A stretch of 64,000 bases of DNA from Sphingorhabdus sp. SMR4y (GTDB taxonomy: Bacteria > Pseudomonadota > Alphaproteobacteria > Sphingomonadales > Sphingomonadaceae). The first letter of the stretch is position 1, and every line of letters starts with the position of its first letter. Below the pieces are notes generated by a model. The model had not been told where the DNA came from and ran no database searches. It saw only the letters and a list, made by a program, of their open reading frames with translations. The stretch spans positions 1,917,001 to 1,981,000 of the forward strand of contig NZ_CP022336.1 in the NCBI RefSeq assembly GCF_002218195.1. Reading direction: 5' to 3'. The position numbers were made by a program, and so were the translations under genes. Shown here piece after piece: positions 50,581 through 59,538 of the stretch.

Positions 50581-52146
50581 TTAGGTTTCCCCGACCATGT
50601 CCCGCAGTTCGGTCTTCAAAATCTTGCCGATATGGCTGCGCGGCAGTTCGTCGATCAGGCGCAGCTCGGAGAGCCTCTGGGTCTTGCCGAGAGTGGCATT
50701 GGTCGCCGCCTTCAGCGCTTCCGGATCGAGTGTCACCCCGGCCTCGGCGACGACAAAACCGACCGGCGTCTCGCCCCATTGCCGCGAGGCCACCCCGATC
50801 ACCGCCGCATCCGCGACGCCCCACTGCGCCATCAGCGCTTCTTCCAGATCGCGCGGATAGATATTGAATCCGCCGGAAATGATCATGTCCTTGGTCCGGC
50901 CCATCAGCGTGATGAAACCGTCCGCGTCGACCTTGCCGATATCGCCCATCCGCTGCCAGCGGTCGCCATTTTCGTCATACCAGCTGGCTTCCTCGGTTTT
51001 CTCCGGCTGGTTCTTGTAGCCCGACATCATCGTCTGCGACCGGCCGACCAGCTCGCCCATTTCGCCCGCGGGCAGCCGATTGAGCTGTTCATCTACCGTG
51101 ATCACCTCGCTGCCGCCCCAGGCGATACCGACCGTATGCAGCTTGTCGGGATGCTCGTGGCAAAGCAGGATGCAAACCACACCGCCTTCGGTCATCGAGT
51201 AGATCTCGATCAACCCGCCGGGCATGCGCTTCAGCACTTCCGCCTTCAGCTCCGCCGAGAAGGGCGCGCTGGTGCAATATTTATGGGTCAGGCTGCCCAG
51301 ATCATAATCGTCGAAGCCGTCAAAATCCATCAGCCGCTGATATTGCACCGGCACCAGCATCGTGTGGCTGGCGCGGTGCGCCTGCGCCAGTTCCAGCCAG
51401 CGCTGGCAGTCGAACTTGCCCATCAGGACAATCGTCCCGCCATAGGCGATAGTCGGAGTGAACAGGGCCAGCGTCGTGTTCGAATAAAGAGGCGTCGACA
51501 GCAGGGTGACCTGCCCGGGCTTGCCGTAACCGGTGGCCTCTCCGACGGCCGCGTGATACCAGCGCATCTGGCGGCTGTGGACAATGCCCTTCGGCGTTCC
51601 GGTGGTGCCGCTGGAATAGATGATATTATAGGGGTCTTTCGGCCCCACCTCCGGATCGGCCGGCATCGCGCCTTCCTCTGCCATCCAGTCAAAGATCATC
51701 GGCGCGTCGTCCACCGCCCGATCGAGCATGACATGTTTCAGCGCGGGCAAGGCCTCGCCGCTCTCCAGCAGCTCCGCCCGCTTGGCGTTGTCGATGAACA
51801 GATGCATCGCGCCGCTGTCGCGCATCATGTTCGCCAGTTGCGTAGGGGTCGCCGAAGTGGTCAGCGGCGCCGCGCAACCACCCGCCACTATCGCGCCAAG
51901 ATAGGCCAGCGCATAACGCACCGTGGTCGTGCCGAGAATCGCAACCGCCTGGCCCTTCTGCAGCCCGTCCGCCTGCAACTGCGCCGCAATCCGGTTGACC
52001 AGCGCCGCCGTCTCCGCCCAGCTCAGCTTTTCCGCGCTGTCATCCAGCGCGATCCGCTCGGGCTGGTTGACCGCATGGGCATTGATCAGATCGGCGAGCT
52101 GGCCAAAGGGCTGCTCGAGATAGCGGGCGGGATCGATATGTTTCAT
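50581..52146 (-). CDS. acyl-CoA synthetase / AMP-dependent ligase
   Basis: A 521-residue adenylate-forming enzyme. The ATP-binding signature is IIYSSGTTGTPKGIVHS, then YSMTEGGVVC, and the C-terminal lid has GRTKDMIISGGFNIYPRDLEEAL. It activates a carboxylic acid as acyl-AMP and then as the CoA thioester. The chosen ATG is at 52146; the 12-codon longer reading is not needed. The acid is unknown; the sequence is close to the long/medium-chain and aromatic ligases alike. Confidence 0.88.
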   Translation of the reverse strand: MKHIDPARYLEQPFGQLADLINAHAVNQPERIALDDSAEKLSWAETAALVNRIAAQLQADGLQKGQAVAILGTTTVRYALAYLGAIVAGGCAAPLTTSATPTQLANMMRDSGAMHLFIDNAKRAELLESGEALPALKHVMLDRAVDDAPMIFDWMAEEGAMPADPEVGPKDPYNIIYSSGTTGTPKGIVHSRQMRWYHAAVGEATGYGKPGQVTLLSTPLYSNTTLALFTPTIAYGGTIVLMGKFDCQRWLELAQAHRASHTMLVPVQYQRLMDFDGFDDYDLGSLTHKYCTSAPFSAELKAEVLKRMPGGLIEIYSMTEGGVVCILLCHEHPDKLHTVGIAWGGSEVITVDEQLNRLPAGEMGELVGRSQTMMSGYKNQPEKTEEASWYDENGDRWQRMGDIGKVDADGFITLMGRTKDMIISGGFNIYPRDLEEALMAQWGVADAAVIGVASRQWGETPVGFVVAEAGVTLDPEALKAATNATLGKTQRLSELRLIDELPRSHIGKILKTELRDMVGET

Positions 52147-52218
52147 CGAGCGATTAATTCCGCATATCGGCTTGAAATGCAATGGCTATCCTGCCGGTTG
52201 GCTTATCGAACAGGGGCA

Positions 52219-52250
52219 GAAAACTGATCGCGCGAAGACACGAAGGTGCG
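52219..52250. repeat. solo copy of the GxxExxY-type terminal repeat
   Basis: CTGATCGCGCGAAGACACGA is nearly the same as the start of the remnant at 52716 (TTGATCGCGCGAAGACCCAA), and is related to the arm at 55081. No gene goes with it, so it is a leftover end. Confidence 0.55.
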
Positions 52251-52317
52251 AAACATTGATACGGCTCGCAATGGCGGCGAGGGAAAAAAGACGCCTGGCT
52301 GCTGGAGAGGGAACCAG

Positions 52318-52464
52318 TCAACTTGGTCCGGCGAAATCACCCGCTGATTCGGTAGCGTTATAAACCTTGCCTTCCGATTCCTGGATATCGAGGAGAACGA
52401 CGACTGGCTTTTCATACGCTCTTTTCATTGTCGCTTCGTGCGTTTTTGCTTCATTCCTATTCAT
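52318..52464 (-). CDS. orphan RiPP-like peptide (48 residues)
   Basis: A 48-residue peptide: a polar leader then AYEKPVVVLLDIQ (YxxP motif, seen in leaders bound by PqqD-like recognition proteins) and a C-terminal part EGKVYNATESAGDFAGPS. The start at 52464 has AAAGGAAG 8 nt upstream. Taking G32 as the first core residue, a glutamate at position 8 (E39) would allow a lasso-type ring, but no cyclase or protease gene is here. A short frame with its own AGGAG lies upstream and ends in TGA before the ATG. Other readings: a non-modified peptide or chance. Downstream is a repeat remnant. Confidence 0.5.
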   Translation of the reverse strand: MNRNEAKTHEATMKRAYEKPVVVLLDIQESEGKVYNATESAGDFAGPS

Positions 52465-52670
52465 TTCGACGCTTCCTTTAAATTTGTTATCATCATGTGC
52501 GGGGGCACAAATTTTGAATCTGGCATATCCACATATTCGCACTCCTAAGCATCAGGAAAAGATAGTCAATTTCAGATTTGCGCGATAGCCTGCCAATCTG
52601 CTGTCATAGGCCCTCTCACCCGCACCGCCTGCCGTGGTTCCCCCATCATGATGGTGCGTTTGGCAAGCCG

Positions 52671-52853
52671 TCACCCTGTTCCTATCCTGCGGCGCACGCC
52701 TTCATCGCGGTAGAGAAAATTGATCGCGCGAAGACCCAAAGGCGCCAAGGATTTTACGCATTGACGATAAGCCAAAGACCCTGTTCGAATGCTGGCGCGC
52801 CAAAAATTCATCAACGGACCAAGCCGAAGATGCATGCACCGGAGGCAGGTCAT
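52671..52853 (-). pseudogene. decayed GxxExxY-type gene remnant
   Basis: The minus frame contains TCLRCMHLRLGPLMNFWRAS, matching TYLRLMHLPLGLLMNFGAPT of the intact gene at 55102-55491; the rest has lost the family sequence. DNA at 52716-52860 aligns with 55081-55200: both have CGCGAAGAC, ATTGACGATA, TTGGCGCGCC-like and ATTCATCA segments in order. Only the gene's 3' third and its end repeat remain. It is the second copy of this family in the window. Confidence 0.65.
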
Positions 52854-52862
52854 TCCGGTGGA

Positions 52863-53681
52863 TCAGCTCTCGCTCAGCCCGGCCCGATATCGCCGGCTGC
52901 CCGCAACCGTGCGTCCGTCCAGCAGCGCTATAGCAAAATCACCGGATCGCGTCGGCGTCAGCGCTATGATCTTGCTGCGATTGACCAGACGCGACCGGTG
53001 GACGCGGACAAAGCCGTGCGCGACTAGGCGCTCTTCCCAGGACGCCAGCGTCCCGCGGACCAGATGGGATTGCTCCCCGGCATGGAACTCGACATAATTG
53101 CCGGCGGCTTCGACATGACTGATATCGTCCGGCGCGAGATACAGGGATGCACCGCCATCCTGCAGCCTGATCCGGTCGTCGGCCGGCGGCGATGTCGCCG
53201 CGCGATTGCGCTCGGCAATATAGTTGAAGGTCCAGTAGGTCGCCGCGATCGCGGCATAAACCAATACATCCTTGCGCCATTCATAGAGCAATGTGATCGC
53301 AACGCCGTCGTCGAAGAAACCATAGCGCGCGCCGTACGCCTGATAGGCGATTTCGCGGGTAACGAAGATGAAGCCGATATGGACCATGGCGAAAGGAATG
53401 GTCAGACCGAAGTGGATAATGAGGAAGCCCGGCAAATTGCCTTCTCGAAACGGCCATCTTTGCATTGCACGACCGACCAGCGGAGCGAGCGCGACGATGA
53501 TGATCGCGCTGGTCACCTCCCACAATATCGGTTCAGTCCAGTGATCGCCAGCACCCTCCATGATGCCCGAGGTGGCGTTGACGAACAACAGCACCATAGC
53601 AGCAAACAGGATTGCCAGCCACGGGTGCCATTCGCCCCGCGGTCTGCCGTTGGTCCCTGCTTTATCGCCGTTGGTCACCAC
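52863..53681 (-). CDS. LytTR-domain membrane transcriptional regulator
   Basis: A 272-residue protein. Four membrane segments lie in the first ~160 residues (PWLAILFAAMVLLFV, SAIIIVALAPLVG, FGLTIPFAMVHIGFIF, DVLVYAAIAATYWTF), then a linker, then a LytTR DNA-binding domain (ISHVEAAGNYVEFHA, RVHRSRLVNRSKI). It may sense a membrane signal directly; no response-regulator receiver domain is present. It starts with GTG. It sits beside a RiPP-like peptide gene and the acyltransferase gene. LytTR regulators often control peptide or surface functions. Confidence 0.85.
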   Translation of the reverse strand: MVTNGDKAGTNGRPRGEWHPWLAILFAAMVLLFVNATSGIMEGAGDHWTEPILWEVTSAIIIVALAPLVGRAMQRWPFREGNLPGFLIIHFGLTIPFAMVHIGFIFVTREIAYQAYGARYGFFDDGVAITLLYEWRKDVLVYAAIAATYWTFNYIAERNRAATSPPADDRIRLQDGGASLYLAPDDISHVEAAGNYVEFHAGEQSHLVRGTLASWEERLVAHGFVRVHRSRLVNRSKIIALTPTRSGDFAIALLDGRTVAGSRRYRAGLSES

Positions 53682-53781
53682 AGCATTCCCGTTCGTCCCC
53701 GCTCCCCGCCTCGTGCGGCATAGCTATAGGCCGCTGGCCAGAACCGCGCAACAATCCGGCGGAGAAGGAGACATCGCCCCC

Positions 53782-54966
53782 ATGACCGACCGCCGCTTCG
53801 ACCTCGACTGGCTTCGCATCATCGCCTTTGGTCTGCTGATATTCTACCATTGCGGGATGTTTTACGTGTCCTGGGACTGGCACGTGAAATCGCGTTTTGC
53901 CAGTACCGCCATCGAACCCCTTATGATGCTGACCAGCCCGTGGCGGCTGAGCTTGCTGTTCCTGATCGCAGGCGCCGCCAGCCGGTTCATGGCCGACAAG
54001 ATGACCCTCGGGAATTTCCTTGCCAACCGCATGGGACGGCTGTGGCCGCCGCTGCTGCTGGCGATGTTCGTGATCGTCCCGCCGCAATCCTATTTCGAGA
54101 TTGTCGAGGCGCTGCAGGTCGCCGACGGGCTGGGCCCGAACCCTGCCGGCTGGCTCGACAATTTCTACGGCAAATATGTCACCGGCTCGGGCAATTGGTG
54201 CGATGCCGAGGGCTGCCTGATAACGCCGACCTACAACCATATGTGGTTTGTCGCCTATCTCATCCTTTATACGCTGGTGCTGCTGCTGATCTTGCCACTG
54301 CTGCGCCGGGCCCCTGCTGCGCTGAACGCCCTGATCGAGGGGCCATGGCTGATCCTGTTGCCGTGGCTCTACCTGACCGCACTGCGCCTGACCCTGTTTC
54401 CGATATTCGGGGAAAGCCACGATTTCCGCACGGACTGGTATTTGCATGCGCTCTATTTCGCCATCTTCCTGTTCGGCTTTGCCATCGCCAAAAATCAGGG
54501 CTTCTTTAATCGCTGCGTCCAATTGCGCTGGATCGTTTTGGCTCTCGCCCTGGCCTGCTGGGCAGCGCTCGTCGTCTATTTTGACGCCTATGCCGAAACC
54601 CGTCCGCCGGAATGGCTACGCCTGACCATGCGCAGCGTGCGGGAACTCGATGCCTGGTGCGCAATCATCGCGGCAATCGGCTTCGCTCACCACCATCTGC
54701 GCGGCAATGACGGGCCTGTGCGCCGGATATTGACGCAAGCCATTTTCCCTTTCTATCTGATTCACCAGACGATCATCGTCGTCGCCGGCCATTATCTCGA
54801 CGAAATGCAGCTCCCGCTCGCCATGGAAGCACCGCTGCTGGTGGCCATCACTTTGGCCGGATGCTGGCTCTTCTATGATCTGGGACGACGGGTGCCGATG
54901 CTGCGCATCTGGATTGGCTTGTCACCCGTGCTCGGAACGCGACCCGAGCGCCGAGGCCAGAATTAA
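53782..54966 (+). CDS. acyltransferase-3 family membrane protein
   Basis: A 394-residue integral membrane protein with about ten spans. The start FDLDWLRIIAFGLLIFYHC has the D-x-L-R-x2-A and H of acyltransferase-3/OpgC-type proteins, and the end LTQAIFPFYLIHQTIIVVAGH holds the conserved His. It would move acyl or succinyl groups onto periplasmic or surface glycans. An AAGGAG lies before the ATG at 53782. It is divergent from the LytTR gene, with 100 bp between starts. Confidence 0.85.
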   Translation: MTDRRFDLDWLRIIAFGLLIFYHCGMFYVSWDWHVKSRFASTAIEPLMMLTSPWRLSLLFLIAGAASRFMADKMTLGNFLANRMGRLWPPLLLAMFVIVPPQSYFEIVEALQVADGLGPNPAGWLDNFYGKYVTGSGNWCDAEGCLITPTYNHMWFVAYLILYTLVLLLILPLLRRAPAALNALIEGPWLILLPWLYLTALRLTLFPIFGESHDFRTDWYLHALYFAIFLFGFAIAKNQGFFNRCVQLRWIVLALALACWAALVVYFDAYAETRPPEWLRLTMRSVRELDAWCAIIAAIGFAHHHLRGNDGPVRRILTQAIFPFYLIHQTIIVVAGHYLDEMQLPLAMEAPLLVAITLAGCWLFYDLGRRVPMLRIWIGLSPVLGTRPERRGQN

Positions 54967-55006
54967 CGCGCATGCCGCCACAGCGGCTTTCTTCGGTCGC
55001 TAGATC

Positions 55007-55068
55007 CTAGCCCGCCACCAGCTTGACATAGATACTCTCGACCCAGCCGCTCTTGCACGGGCCGTCAT
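55007..55068. repeat. 62 bp direct repeat, copy of the end of the SH3-like gene
   Basis: This stretch matches 55634-55695 at 59 of 62 positions (three changes in the middle, GATA versus AGTG). In the second copy it is the last 20 codons and stop of the SH3-like gene. The two copies bracket the GxxExxY cassette. Confidence 0.85.
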
Positions 55069-55080
55069 TCAAGAAATTTT

Positions 55081-55106
55081 TCACGCGAAGACGCTAAGAC
55101 GCTAAG
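55081..55106. repeat. terminal repeat, left of the GxxExxY gene
   Basis: TCACGCGAAGACGCTAAGAC and following bases. It is the inverted partner of 55501-55526. It contains the stop codon of the gene (55102-55104). Confidence 0.75.
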
Positions 55107-55491
55107 AGTGGTAATTATTGACGATACGCCGGAGGCCCAGTTTGAACGTTGGCGCGCCAAAATTCATCAGCAGACCGAGCGGGAGATGCATGAGCCTCAG
55201 GTAGGTCAATAGTTGCTTCCCGTGAATCGGCATCATGTTTTCTGAGGATTTGAGTTCGATCAGAAGCTTGCCTTCGACAATAAGGTCGTAGCGAAAGGCA
55301 TCTTTGATCACTAATCCGTCGAACCGGATATCGACCGGCTTTTGCCGGTCAATTTTCAAACCACGGCGCTCGATACTTCTGGCCAAAAGGCGATCATAAA
55401 CCGTTTCCAGCAACCCCGGCCCCAGATCCTCGTGAATCCGGAACCCGCAGTCAATGGCGACGGTCGCCAAATATTCAAGTTGCTGCCCCAA
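55102..55491 (-). CDS. GxxExxY-family protein (PD-(D/E)XK nuclease-like)
   Basis: A 129-residue protein of the GxxExxY family. The name motif is GLLETVY (in LGPGLLETVYDRLLAR) and the nuclease-like core is YDLIVEGKLLIELKSSEN, with D...E-x-K in place. The tail LTYLRLMHLPLGLLMNFGAP is typical. A TTG at 55491 is the best start; no ATG fits well, and GGTGG is close to it. The family has a PD-(D/E)XK-like fold and unknown function. It lies inside inverted repeats and a duplicated neighbouring gene end. Confidence 0.8.
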   Translation of the reverse strand: MGQQLEYLATVAIDCGFRIHEDLGPGLLETVYDRLLARSIERRGLKIDRQKPVDIRFDGLVIKDAFRYDLIVEGKLLIELKSSENMMPIHGKQLLTYLRLMHLPLGLLMNFGAPTFKLGLRRIVNNYHS

Positions 55492-55500
55492 GGACCACCT

Positions 55501-55526
55501 CTTTGCGCCTTAGCGTCTTCGCGTGA
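55501..55526. repeat. terminal repeat, right of the GxxExxY gene
   Basis: CTTTGCGCCTTAGCGTCTTC and following bases, inverted partner of 55081-55106. It lies upstream of the gene's start, so both gene ends are marked. Confidence 0.75.
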
Positions 55527-55633
55527 GAAACACTTCATCTCGTCCGCCACCAAAATAGCAGAATTTTGGTTATTCAGCCATCTCCGCCGATTGACCGTTG
55601 CGGTCATTCTGGAAAGCCAGTGTCTGCGAGAAA

Positions 55634-56164
55634 CTAGCCCGCCACCAGCTTGACATAAGTGCTCTCGACCCAGCCGCTCTTGCACGGGCCGTCATAATTG
55701 CGCTTGGCGCGCACCGGAGAGGATACGCCGCAGTCGACGGACCCATTGCTGGCTGCGGGGGCTGAGCCGTTTGCTTCAGTGTCGTCGATGCTCTCTGCCA
55801 CGCCGTCATCATAGACGATGCCGAACCATTGCTGGTCGTGGCTGCGGGTGCAGATCCACAATTGCTGGCCTTCGCCGATTTCAGCTTTCTGTTTCGCCGC
55901 ATCAAACGGGGCGATCCGCACCGGAAGCGTGCCGCCGCGCAGACCCTGCACCCGTCCCACCGCCTGACAGGCGTCAAAACGCGGCCCGCCTTCGCCGATG
56001 CGCACCGGCTTTTCTGCCGGATCCGCACCCTGCCGCGCCTCGCGACCCGTCGGATTAACGAGATCGGTCTGCGCTTCGGACAGGTCATCTTCCACCCGGG
56101 TGGTCTCGGAACAGGCAAGGGTCGCCAGTGACAGTGCAGAAATGGTCAGGATTTTTCGGATCAT
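55634..56164 (-). CDS. SH3-like-domain lipoprotein
   Basis: A 176-residue lipoprotein with lipobox LATLAC (Cys at about residue 18). After an acidic linker, the C-terminal half has bacterial SH3-like strands: TLPVRIAPFDAAKQKAEIGE, QLWICTRSHDQQWFGIVYDD and GWVESTYVKLV. Cysteines ACQAVGR, ICTR, DCGV and PCKS may form disulfides. SH3-like modules often bind peptidoglycan. The last 20 codons and stop are duplicated beyond the adjoining GxxExxY gene at 55007-55068. Confidence 0.75.
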   Translation of the reverse strand: MIRKILTISALSLATLACSETTRVEDDLSEAQTDLVNPTGREARQGADPAEKPVRIGEGGPRFDACQAVGRVQGLRGGTLPVRIAPFDAAKQKAEIGEGQQLWICTRSHDQQWFGIVYDDGVAESIDDTEANGSAPAASNGSVDCGVSSPVRAKRNYDGPCKSGWVESTYVKLVAG

Positions 56165-56252
56165 GCCAAGAGGTCTAGCGCAAAAGCAGGGTCCTTGGGA
56201 AGCTGCGAATATTTGCGCCGGCGAGGGCCGAGGCTATTCGACTCCCATCCTG

Positions 56253-56279
56253 CCGTTCGTCCTGAGCCTGTCGAAGGAC
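56253..56279. repeat. dispersed palindromic repeat (CTTCGAC family), single copy
   Basis: CCGTTCGTCCTGAGCCTGTC-type repeat in inverted orientation to 33040. It lies between the SH3-like lipoprotein start and the PaaI thioesterase end. The rest of 56165-56330 holds no gene I can support. Confidence 0.75.
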
Positions 56280-56330
56280 ACTGGAGAACGCAAAGGTGCT
56301 TCGCCACGCTCGTCCCGAACGGATCAAGCC

Positions 56331-56732
56331 TCACAGCACGATCTGGGTCTGCGTCACCACCGCGACCAGGGTGCCGTCCTCGAGAGTGATCTTGGTTTGC
56401 CAGACCGACTGGCGCCGGCCCACCTTGAACGGCGTCGCCTCGCCGTAAACCGTGCTGCCCTCCGGCGCCGCGTTCAGGAAATTGGTCTTGCTTTCCGAAG
56501 TCGTGGTGCCGTTCGACCCCTCAGGCAGATTGGCAAAACCGCCGAATGCGCCGAGTACATCGGCAAAGGTCATCACCGCGCCGCCGTGGATACTGGGACT
56601 GCCGCGCCCGTTGCCGGCAGTACAGAGCTCCGGCCGCACCAGCATCTCGCCCCGCACCTTGTCCTTGTCGATCGCGGTGATGGTGATTCCCATGGTTTTG
56701 GCAAAGGGCACCATATCGGCGGGATTGGTCAT
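56331..56732 (-). CDS. PaaI-type hotdog thioesterase
   Basis: A 133-residue hotdog-fold thioesterase. The core is GRGSPSIHGGAVMTFADVLGAF, read here by its parts SPSIHGGAVMTF and DVLGAF, with the catalytic acid in the helix after it. The C-terminal strands are SVWQTKITLEDGTLVAVVTQTQ. The ATG at 56732 gives the family length (about 130-140). It hydrolyses acyl-CoA thioesters; the acyl group is unknown. It is divergent from gyrB. Confidence 0.86.
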   Translation of the reverse strand: MTNPADMVPFAKTMGITITAIDKDKVRGEMLVRPELCTAGNGRGSPSIHGGAVMTFADVLGAFGGFANLPEGSNGTTTSESKTNFLNAAPEGSTVYGEATPFKVGRRQSVWQTKITLEDGTLVAVVTQTQIVL

Positions 56733-56961
56733 ATCTCGGGTCCTTTTTGGTTCATTTCTGGCGCATTCTCGCGCAAAAATGACAAGATATGGCATGTTTT
56801 GCACAAAGGCGGAGCGGGAAGAAGTGCTTATTCCGGTGGCGCCGGAGCCGCGATTCTACCGGCTATTTTCGCCCCCTATTCATTTTAATAATGACGGCTT
56901 CGCGCAAGAATGGCCCTGACAATCCGAAAACAATATACCCTACTGAGTTACAAGGGTTTTA

Positions 56962-59538
<2,577 letters not shown>

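Follow-up and report, generated by a model that had tools for sequence, protein, structure and literature searches.

This locus raises the question of how a small nuclease gene, with no transposase recognised beside it, came to lie between two copies of the 3′ end of a neighbouring gene. In the window, i.e. the whole 64 kb stretch of DNA that was analysed, positions 55007-55068 and 55634-55695 are identical at 59 of 62 bases. The next-best ungapped match of the first copy elsewhere in the window is 33/62, and the best match in 50 mononucleotide-shuffled windows is 35/62. The repeat is therefore not due to chance, and the 62 bp duplication reported in the preliminary description is real, its agreement being far above both backgrounds. 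The assignment of the second copy to the end of an SH3-like gene also proved right: positions 55634-55695 comprise the stop codon and the final 19 2/3 codons of a minus-strand open reading frame at 55634-56164. The label SH3-like lipoprotein stems from the first reading of the sequence; the encoded protein has no match in Pfam or NCBIfam. The first copy, also in minus-strand orientation, is an orphan tail.

Between the two copies lies a GxxExxY gene (55102-55491, minus strand, TTG start, 129 amino acids), which profiles and alignments characterise as PD-(D/E)XK nuclease-like. It is framed by inverted repeats, previously given as 26 bp; they are present, and at 32 nt with 91% complementarity they are longer than stated. 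Both arms are octamer arrays. One lies 5′ of the gene (55499-55530), the other 3′ of it (55077-55108), and the latter contains the stop codon of the gene. A stretch of 103 bp (55531-55633) extends from the 5′ arm to the SH3 stop codon. Over roughly the first 80 bp, it is related to the DNA just outside other element arms in genome G028 and, more weakly, in G010, so that the stretch between the tails is more than the DNA from arm to arm. Beyond the orphan tail follow an acyltransferase gene (Acyl_transf_3, 53782-54966, plus strand), a LytTR-domain gene (52863-53681, minus strand) that adjoins the acyltransferase gene also in G002 and G005, the remnant of a second GxxExxY element with an array and the C-terminal part of the gene (52709-52850, minus strand), and a lone array (52226-52252) beside an AMP-ligase gene, the remnant of an older element. 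None of the five neighbouring proteins scanned in the window is a transposase, no partner gene was recognised next to the GxxExxY gene in the window, and an Rfam scan of positions 52000-57000 matched no family.

The window protein scores 119.1 bits against the GxxExxY profile TIGR04256 (cut-off 35) and 117 bits against Pfam PDDEXK_3 (PF13366; cut-off 22). These values, well above the cut-offs, bear out the earlier view that one PD-(D/E)XK-like gene lies between the inverted repeats. PDDEXK_3 is the sole Pfam match of the gene, i.e. it does not encode an HUH tyrosine transposase, and no DDE, serine or HUH transposase lies between the ends, which enclose this single gene. Two alignments, of 11 and 54 sequences, show no variation at G24, E29, Y32, D69, E79, K81 and Q93, and Y97 is invariant in the smaller and nearly so in the larger one. 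The catalytic D..ExK residues of the PD-(D/E)XK superfamily (D69, E79 and K81) are kept. The predicted structure is a single nuclease-like domain (pLDDT 95.7, pTM 0.89). In a Foldseek search against the PDB, E values ≤0.001 were reached by two chains only, both of 4ic1 (SSO0001; best E 2.3e-4, TM by query length 0.47), which we take to be a Cas4 protein; MGME1, LHK-Exo and lambda exonuclease came next. The TM values by query length were at most 0.55 among the matches listed and at most 0.50 for the named nucleases, and a PDB sequence search with the 54-sequence profile yielded no relative at E ≤ 1. The protein may resemble Cas4 and the RecB-family exonucleases in its predicted fold and has the residues E..D..ExK..QxxxY, presumably a motif common to these enzymes and GxxExxY, and it differs from them in being a single domain of only ~129 amino acids with weak TM scores. 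The best reading is that GxxExxY is, by prediction, a minimal Cas4/RecB-like PD-(D/E)XK nuclease. No match of the window protein was found in 50,697 phage records, and the family is rare on plasmids, with 8 and 7 of 72,556 records for two queries.

For comparison, we analysed the flanks of GxxExxY genes in a broad set, the best 80 of 577 confirmed candidate loci, all in named records; 77 of them had enough flanking sequence. The record titles include archaea, Bacteroidota, Cyanobacteria, Planctomycetota, Verrucomicrobia, Chloroflexota, Acidobacteria, Proteobacteria, and others. Inverted flanks scoring at least 16 were found at 64 of the 77 loci, compared with 0/58 for flank pairs 1.2 kb away and 2/77 for shuffled flanks. 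The search for common repeats around other GxxExxY genes, suggested in the preliminary description, was thus successful in many phyla, and the proposal that gene and inverted repeats belong together as a unit is upheld. Flanks in direct orientation also reach a score of 16 at 24 of the 77 loci, because some genes sit between whole palindromes. In the window's genus, 24 of the 30 scored loci have inverted flanks of this quality, many of these loci being orthologous sites, which spoils mismatched pairs as a background for this set.

Each arm is a run of CRCNNAG-type units with a period of 8 or 9. Two-unit arrays face inward on both sides at 43 of the 77 loci and outward on both sides at seven, and on the far flanks they were found at 1/55 on each side. 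The arms have a characteristic outer end, which in 99 arms reads TTTMAC before the first unit, CRCRRAG. Of the two bases immediately before this unit, the first is A in 96 of these arms and the second is C in 89, and both positions lie outside the part that was fixed by the search pattern. The majority consensus of the 99 arms starts with TTTnACCACAGAG and has no GTAG or CGTC tag at its end.

Arrays also occur away from the genes. The window's own genome (3.48 Mb) was scanned with a three-unit pattern, allowing up to two mismatches, and with the reversed pattern as a control. It contains 28 arms (two of which are overlapping neighbours) versus two for the control, and four of the 28 belong to its two GxxExxY genes. 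Seven gene-less inverted pairs were found, six of 66-69 bp and one of 86 bp. The sizes are similar elsewhere: among the pairs listed, 30 of 42 in the window's genus are 64-70 bp long (three outward-facing pairs, one each in G013, G016, and G025, are not among the 42), and at least 12 in the acidobacterial genome that is home to locus L151 have 66-76 bp. Single-strand folding was predicted for four palindromes, and all of them gave z-scores between −5.0 and −6.8. From the 80-locus set, 20 named genomes were picked for arms with 8 bp spacing. Sixteen of them hold arms of the pattern, and in 12 the arms outnumber the sum of the reversed control and two for each GxxExxY gene; the remaining four lack such arms despite having a GxxExxY gene. 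In G461, the value of the reversed control (17) is above that of the arms (9).

The abundance and the type of the gene-less copies were compared with the presence and the type of the gene. Within the genus, the median is 16 arms for 14 genomes with an array-type gene and one arm for seven genomes without a GxxExxY match, all of these genomes being related. Set aside from the medians were seven genomes that have only L015-type genes (other arm spacing, 0-2 arms of the pattern), two with divergent genes (0 arms), and two with truncated genes, i.e. G005 (4 arms) and G004 (23 arms). The outer unit is CAC in 43 of 86 gene-less arms of four genomes with an L001-type gene (for G016, among the arms listed) and in 2 of 31 gene-less arms of three genomes without it. 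The L001-type gene's own arms are of the CAC type, and kinship between the compared genomes is included in these values. G021 has two GxxExxY genes and only two arms, and G006 has eight array arms and no GxxExxY match, so the palindromes may outlast the loss of the gene. The arms of G006 would also suit an alternative in which another enzyme, a RAYT-like HUH or IS transposase, moves the arrays, with GxxExxY merely carried along or serving the cell in some other way. The same holds for CGTC-type palindromes, which according to the accessible part of PMC3733652 have no dedicated transposase and which resemble, by eye, repeats at the same operon junctions here. However, in many phyla the arms are placed in much the same way around GxxExxY genes and have a motif in common, and the repeat type tracks the gene type, so that we regard another enzyme as improbable.

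Filled and empty sites were compared at several operon junctions, where the gene names (trp, his, met, pyr, and pheA) represent a reading of the translations. For family f43, 30 trpC loci were read, out of 63 genomes with a match. A GxxExxY gene is present between trpD and trpC at 15 of the 30 (broken in two cases), and at ten there is no element and the two genes meet at ATGA. The remaining five are L254, where the gap is probably a deletion scar, two other gaps, and two loci at which trpD does not adjoin trpC. Further f43 elements occupy the pheA|hisC and pyrB|pyrC junctions. In the f43 gene tree, most copies at the trp site group together and are separate from those at pyrBC and pheA-hisC, which indicates that the insertions are old and mostly inherited, and that mobility is low. 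The arm sequence of L116, a member of f43, is identical in L144, a named zetaproteobacterial record.

Two junctions with gene-less palindromes were read in the same way. At related hisB|hisH loci of the window's genus, a gene-less palindrome is present in 8 of 30 cases and a plain 4 bp overlap in 18, the others being a 12 bp gap in G003, a 2 bp gap at one locus, and another palindrome at two. The GyrB tree places G003 within a set of species whose site is filled, and recombinational replacement could explain its gap as an alternative to precise excision. At 30 related metX|metW loci, ten have a gene-less palindrome, 12 are empty, five have other repeats, and three have a gene-like insert. The latter (L333, L342, and L348, in G022, G007, and G009) is ~430-440 bp long and perhaps encodes an acetyltransferase. 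ATGA is found on both sides of the palindrome at all ten filled loci and ATGACC on both sides at seven of the ten; these shared bases exceed what the stop and start codons need, and the ten loci are related by descent. In some relatives, CGTCAT-containing palindromic repeats were also seen at the same junctions (L312 and L318 at hisB|hisH; L268, L275, and L278 at ruvA|ruvB), as if such operon junctions collected several repeat families.

Read across filled and empty junctions, the shared bases number ~4-14 and are variable. Duplications flush with the arms were also scored at 103 loci, and a score of at least 8 was found at 32 of them, compared with 18% of mismatched pairs. The excess is modest, which is compatible with a short, variable duplication at some junctions and with no fixed target duplication. 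As several of the palindromes lie between operon genes, they would be transcribed as hairpins, and the arrays might then be host regulatory hairpins (terminators or mRNA stabilisers), with the gene encoding a repair or defence nuclease. We consider this very unlikely, because the palindromes are missing at the same junctions in many relatives, the operons are unrelated, and inverted pairs stand on both sides of the nuclease gene.

The arrangement has counterparts among known systems. According to the accessible parts of PMC2817692 and PMC8266576, RAYT genes are flanked by inverted REPs, and the cognate REPs are dispersed and coevolve with them. The RAYT/TnpA-REP and REP/REPIN systems (REPtrons), as far as these parts describe them, are thus similar in that a gene lies between two inverted palindromic repeats, here at 64 of the 77 loci, and in that cognate repeats are dispersed without the gene, their type and abundance following the gene (among related genomes in our case). 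In contrast, the enzyme here is a PD-(D/E)XK nuclease and not an HUH transposase, and the repeat consists of arrayed units of 8-9 bp and ends in TTTMAC, with a consensus that lacks a GTAG or CGTC tag. With the same architecture and another enzyme superfamily and repeat, the system is therefore not a member of the REPtrons, but may work like one. In TIRtrons (TIRYT), too, long inverted repeats enclose a gene, and some of these repeats form modest repeat families; they differ in their tyrosine (HUH) transposase and the motif GGGGWSAS, and octamer arrays are not part of their description in the accessible portion of PMC3733652. MITEs, as treated in the same portion of that paper, are short gene-less inverted-repeat elements that accompany a gene-bearing relative, as do the gene-less copies here. 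They differ in that a DDE transposase is not found here, the arms are unit arrays, and the bases shared at the junctions are short and variable. A classical insertion sequence is likewise dissimilar in its transposase, the ends here enclosing a single PDDEXK_3 gene. With regard to a target duplication of fixed length, the ~4-14 bases shared at the junctions vary in number, and the excess over mismatched pairs at the 103 loci is modest.

In the open literature, without most subscription journals and bioRxiv, we found no description of a GxxExxY array or palindrome system among the entries listed. GxxExxY is named there only in passing, the array strings matched only in fish eDNA work, and the title of the TIGR04256 profile states no function.

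The tiny nuclease gene and its arrays look like a mobile system without a known transposase that occurs in many bacteria and some archaea. Given the association of gene and arrays, the terminal motif, the hairpin potential, the dispersal, the filled and empty sites, and the short bases shared at some junctions, all of which were observed, we infer that the nuclease acts on the arrays, cutting or mobilising them. GxxExxY would recognise the cognate array once this has folded as a single strand or extruded as a cruciform, and would cut at or near the array edge. Host repair would then copy or join the array-bounded DNA into a new site, mostly an intergenic one where it is harmless. Gene-less copies would probably arise by internal deletion; the remnants in G003 and G016, in which both arms are kept, may be compared. 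In its widest form, the proposal is that GxxExxY mobilises widespread transposase-free elements: a Cas4-like nuclease would cut array hairpins, host repair would copy array-bounded DNA, the gene-less copies would constitute a large palindrome family in bacterial and archaeal chromosomes, and the occasional duplicated end of a host gene, such as that in the window, would be a by-product of repair. We advance this widest form tentatively, with somewhat less than even confidence.

To return to the duplication in the window, the gene orders of relatives were compared. In the GyrB tree, the window genome (G000) groups with G003, then with G016, and then with G012 and G028, and G002 and G005 are sisters elsewhere in the tree. 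In G003 and G016, the order is AMP-ligase gene, array-bounded GxxExxY remnants, and SH3 stop codon, the arm being flush with the stop codon. A CGTCATTGCGAGGAnCGCAGCGACGCGGCAATCC-type repeat was noticed inside these both-arm remnants of G003 and G016 (L062, 5650-5810, and L086, 5500-5600 and 5880-5980). In G002, the order is AMP-ligase gene, GxxExxY remnant, LytTR gene, acyltransferase gene, and SH3 gene. An empty site in relatives, predicted in the preliminary description, was therefore found, the acyltransferase gene of G002 being directly followed by the SH3 end. G002 is collinear with positions 52866-55068 of the window, and collinearity stops exactly at the end of the orphan tail, which places the orphan tail at the position of the SH3 end in the G002 order. 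The acyltransferase is 81-82% identical to that of relatives (82% for G002). Its stop codon is 40 bp from the SH3 tail in the window versus 38 bp in G002, and the similarity between these two spacers is weak, 2.6% of shuffles being equally good.

On its other side, the element adjoins the SH3 gene as in the G003 order. The window thus looks like a junction of G002-type and G003-type arrangements at the edge of the element. A single junction at 55068/55069, which is 8 bp beyond the array, suffices to explain the orphan tail as well as the position of the element, and a junction of two neighbouring arrangements accounts for the repeat at least as well as a target duplication. In mechanistic terms, a G002-type "acyltransferase - SH3 tail" would have been joined at the element edge to the "element - SH3 gene" order known from G003 and G016, and the junction would have left one orphan SH3 tail and one intact SH3 gene. 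The origin of the orphan tail was addressed with its sequence, which is short, as are all SH3 tail comparisons. The orphan and the true tail both carry CTTGACATA, which is found in 0 of 29 relatives' tails, and a duplication inside the G000 lineage therefore fits better than a G002-like donor tail. At the protein level, the three mismatches between the two tails amount to one replacement (T to I), and on reading the translations the isoleucine is present in G002, G005, and others. Judged from the sequence, the differences look like allelic variation rather than decay.

Alternatively, the SH3 gene could have received the element by insertion near its 3′ terminus, with repair duplicating 62 bp of the target. 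Compared with the G002 order, the 565 bp at 55069-55633 are indeed an insertion between two SH3 tails, the lineage-specific string is common to both tails, and shared bases, if shorter ones, exist at other junctions. However, the remnants in G003 and G016 are flush with the SH3 stop codon and have no second tail, the inserted stretch brings along the ~80 bp beyond the arm that are related to the flanks of other elements, the tail differences resemble allelic variation, with a codon for a residue common in relatives, and comparable duplications were recognised at few other GxxExxY loci. We regard an insertion with target duplication as unlikely, although its probability is appreciable.

The last point concerns all GxxExxY loci. 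A flanking direct repeat scoring at least 20 was found at 33 of 134 loci, and the content of the repeats was judged in context for L002, L005, L007, L098, and L112. Among the five loci judged, those with a duplicated end of a neighbouring gene were the one in the window and the two at pyrB|pyrC (L098 and L112). The latter two, which probably represent one event, have a tandem duplication with the pyrB end, the element, and the pyrC start; in L112, most of the GxxExxY gene is gone from the first copy. Long direct repeats of 335 and 236 bp also flank the GxxExxY genes of L182 and L189, respectively. The expectation that duplicated host gene ends would flank other GxxExxY genes was thus borne out at pyrB|pyrC, within a tandem duplication, and the duplications were otherwise unrecognised among the five loci judged. 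A duplication of the 62 bp type is not a general hallmark of GxxExxY loci, and the idea that the nuclease generally produces very long target duplications is not supported, as such loci are few and the shared bases elsewhere number ~4-14.

The pyrB end - element - pyrC start arrangement read at L098 and L112 provides a model for another origin of the window, a tandem duplication of the SH3 tail plus the element by slippage or unequal exchange, after which the second element was lost or replaced by the LytTR-acyltransferase block. A GxxExxY remnant does lie beyond the far side of this block, element remnants are doubled in G016, and flank and array are doubled in G012 and G028. Yet the match of the acyltransferase-tail spacing to G002 (40 versus 38 bp) would then be a coincidence, and we assign a low probability to this scenario. 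Taken together, we lean slightly towards a REPtron-like system of GxxExxY genes and arrays with scattered gene-less copies, in which the 62 bp repeat of the window is a secondary scar of a junction.

The link between GxxExxY and the palindromes suggests what the gene is likely to do and which enzyme is likely to serve the repeats. Should the nuclease be the mover, small palindromic repeats would have acquired a cognate enzyme at least twice in evolution, the enzymes being unrelated.
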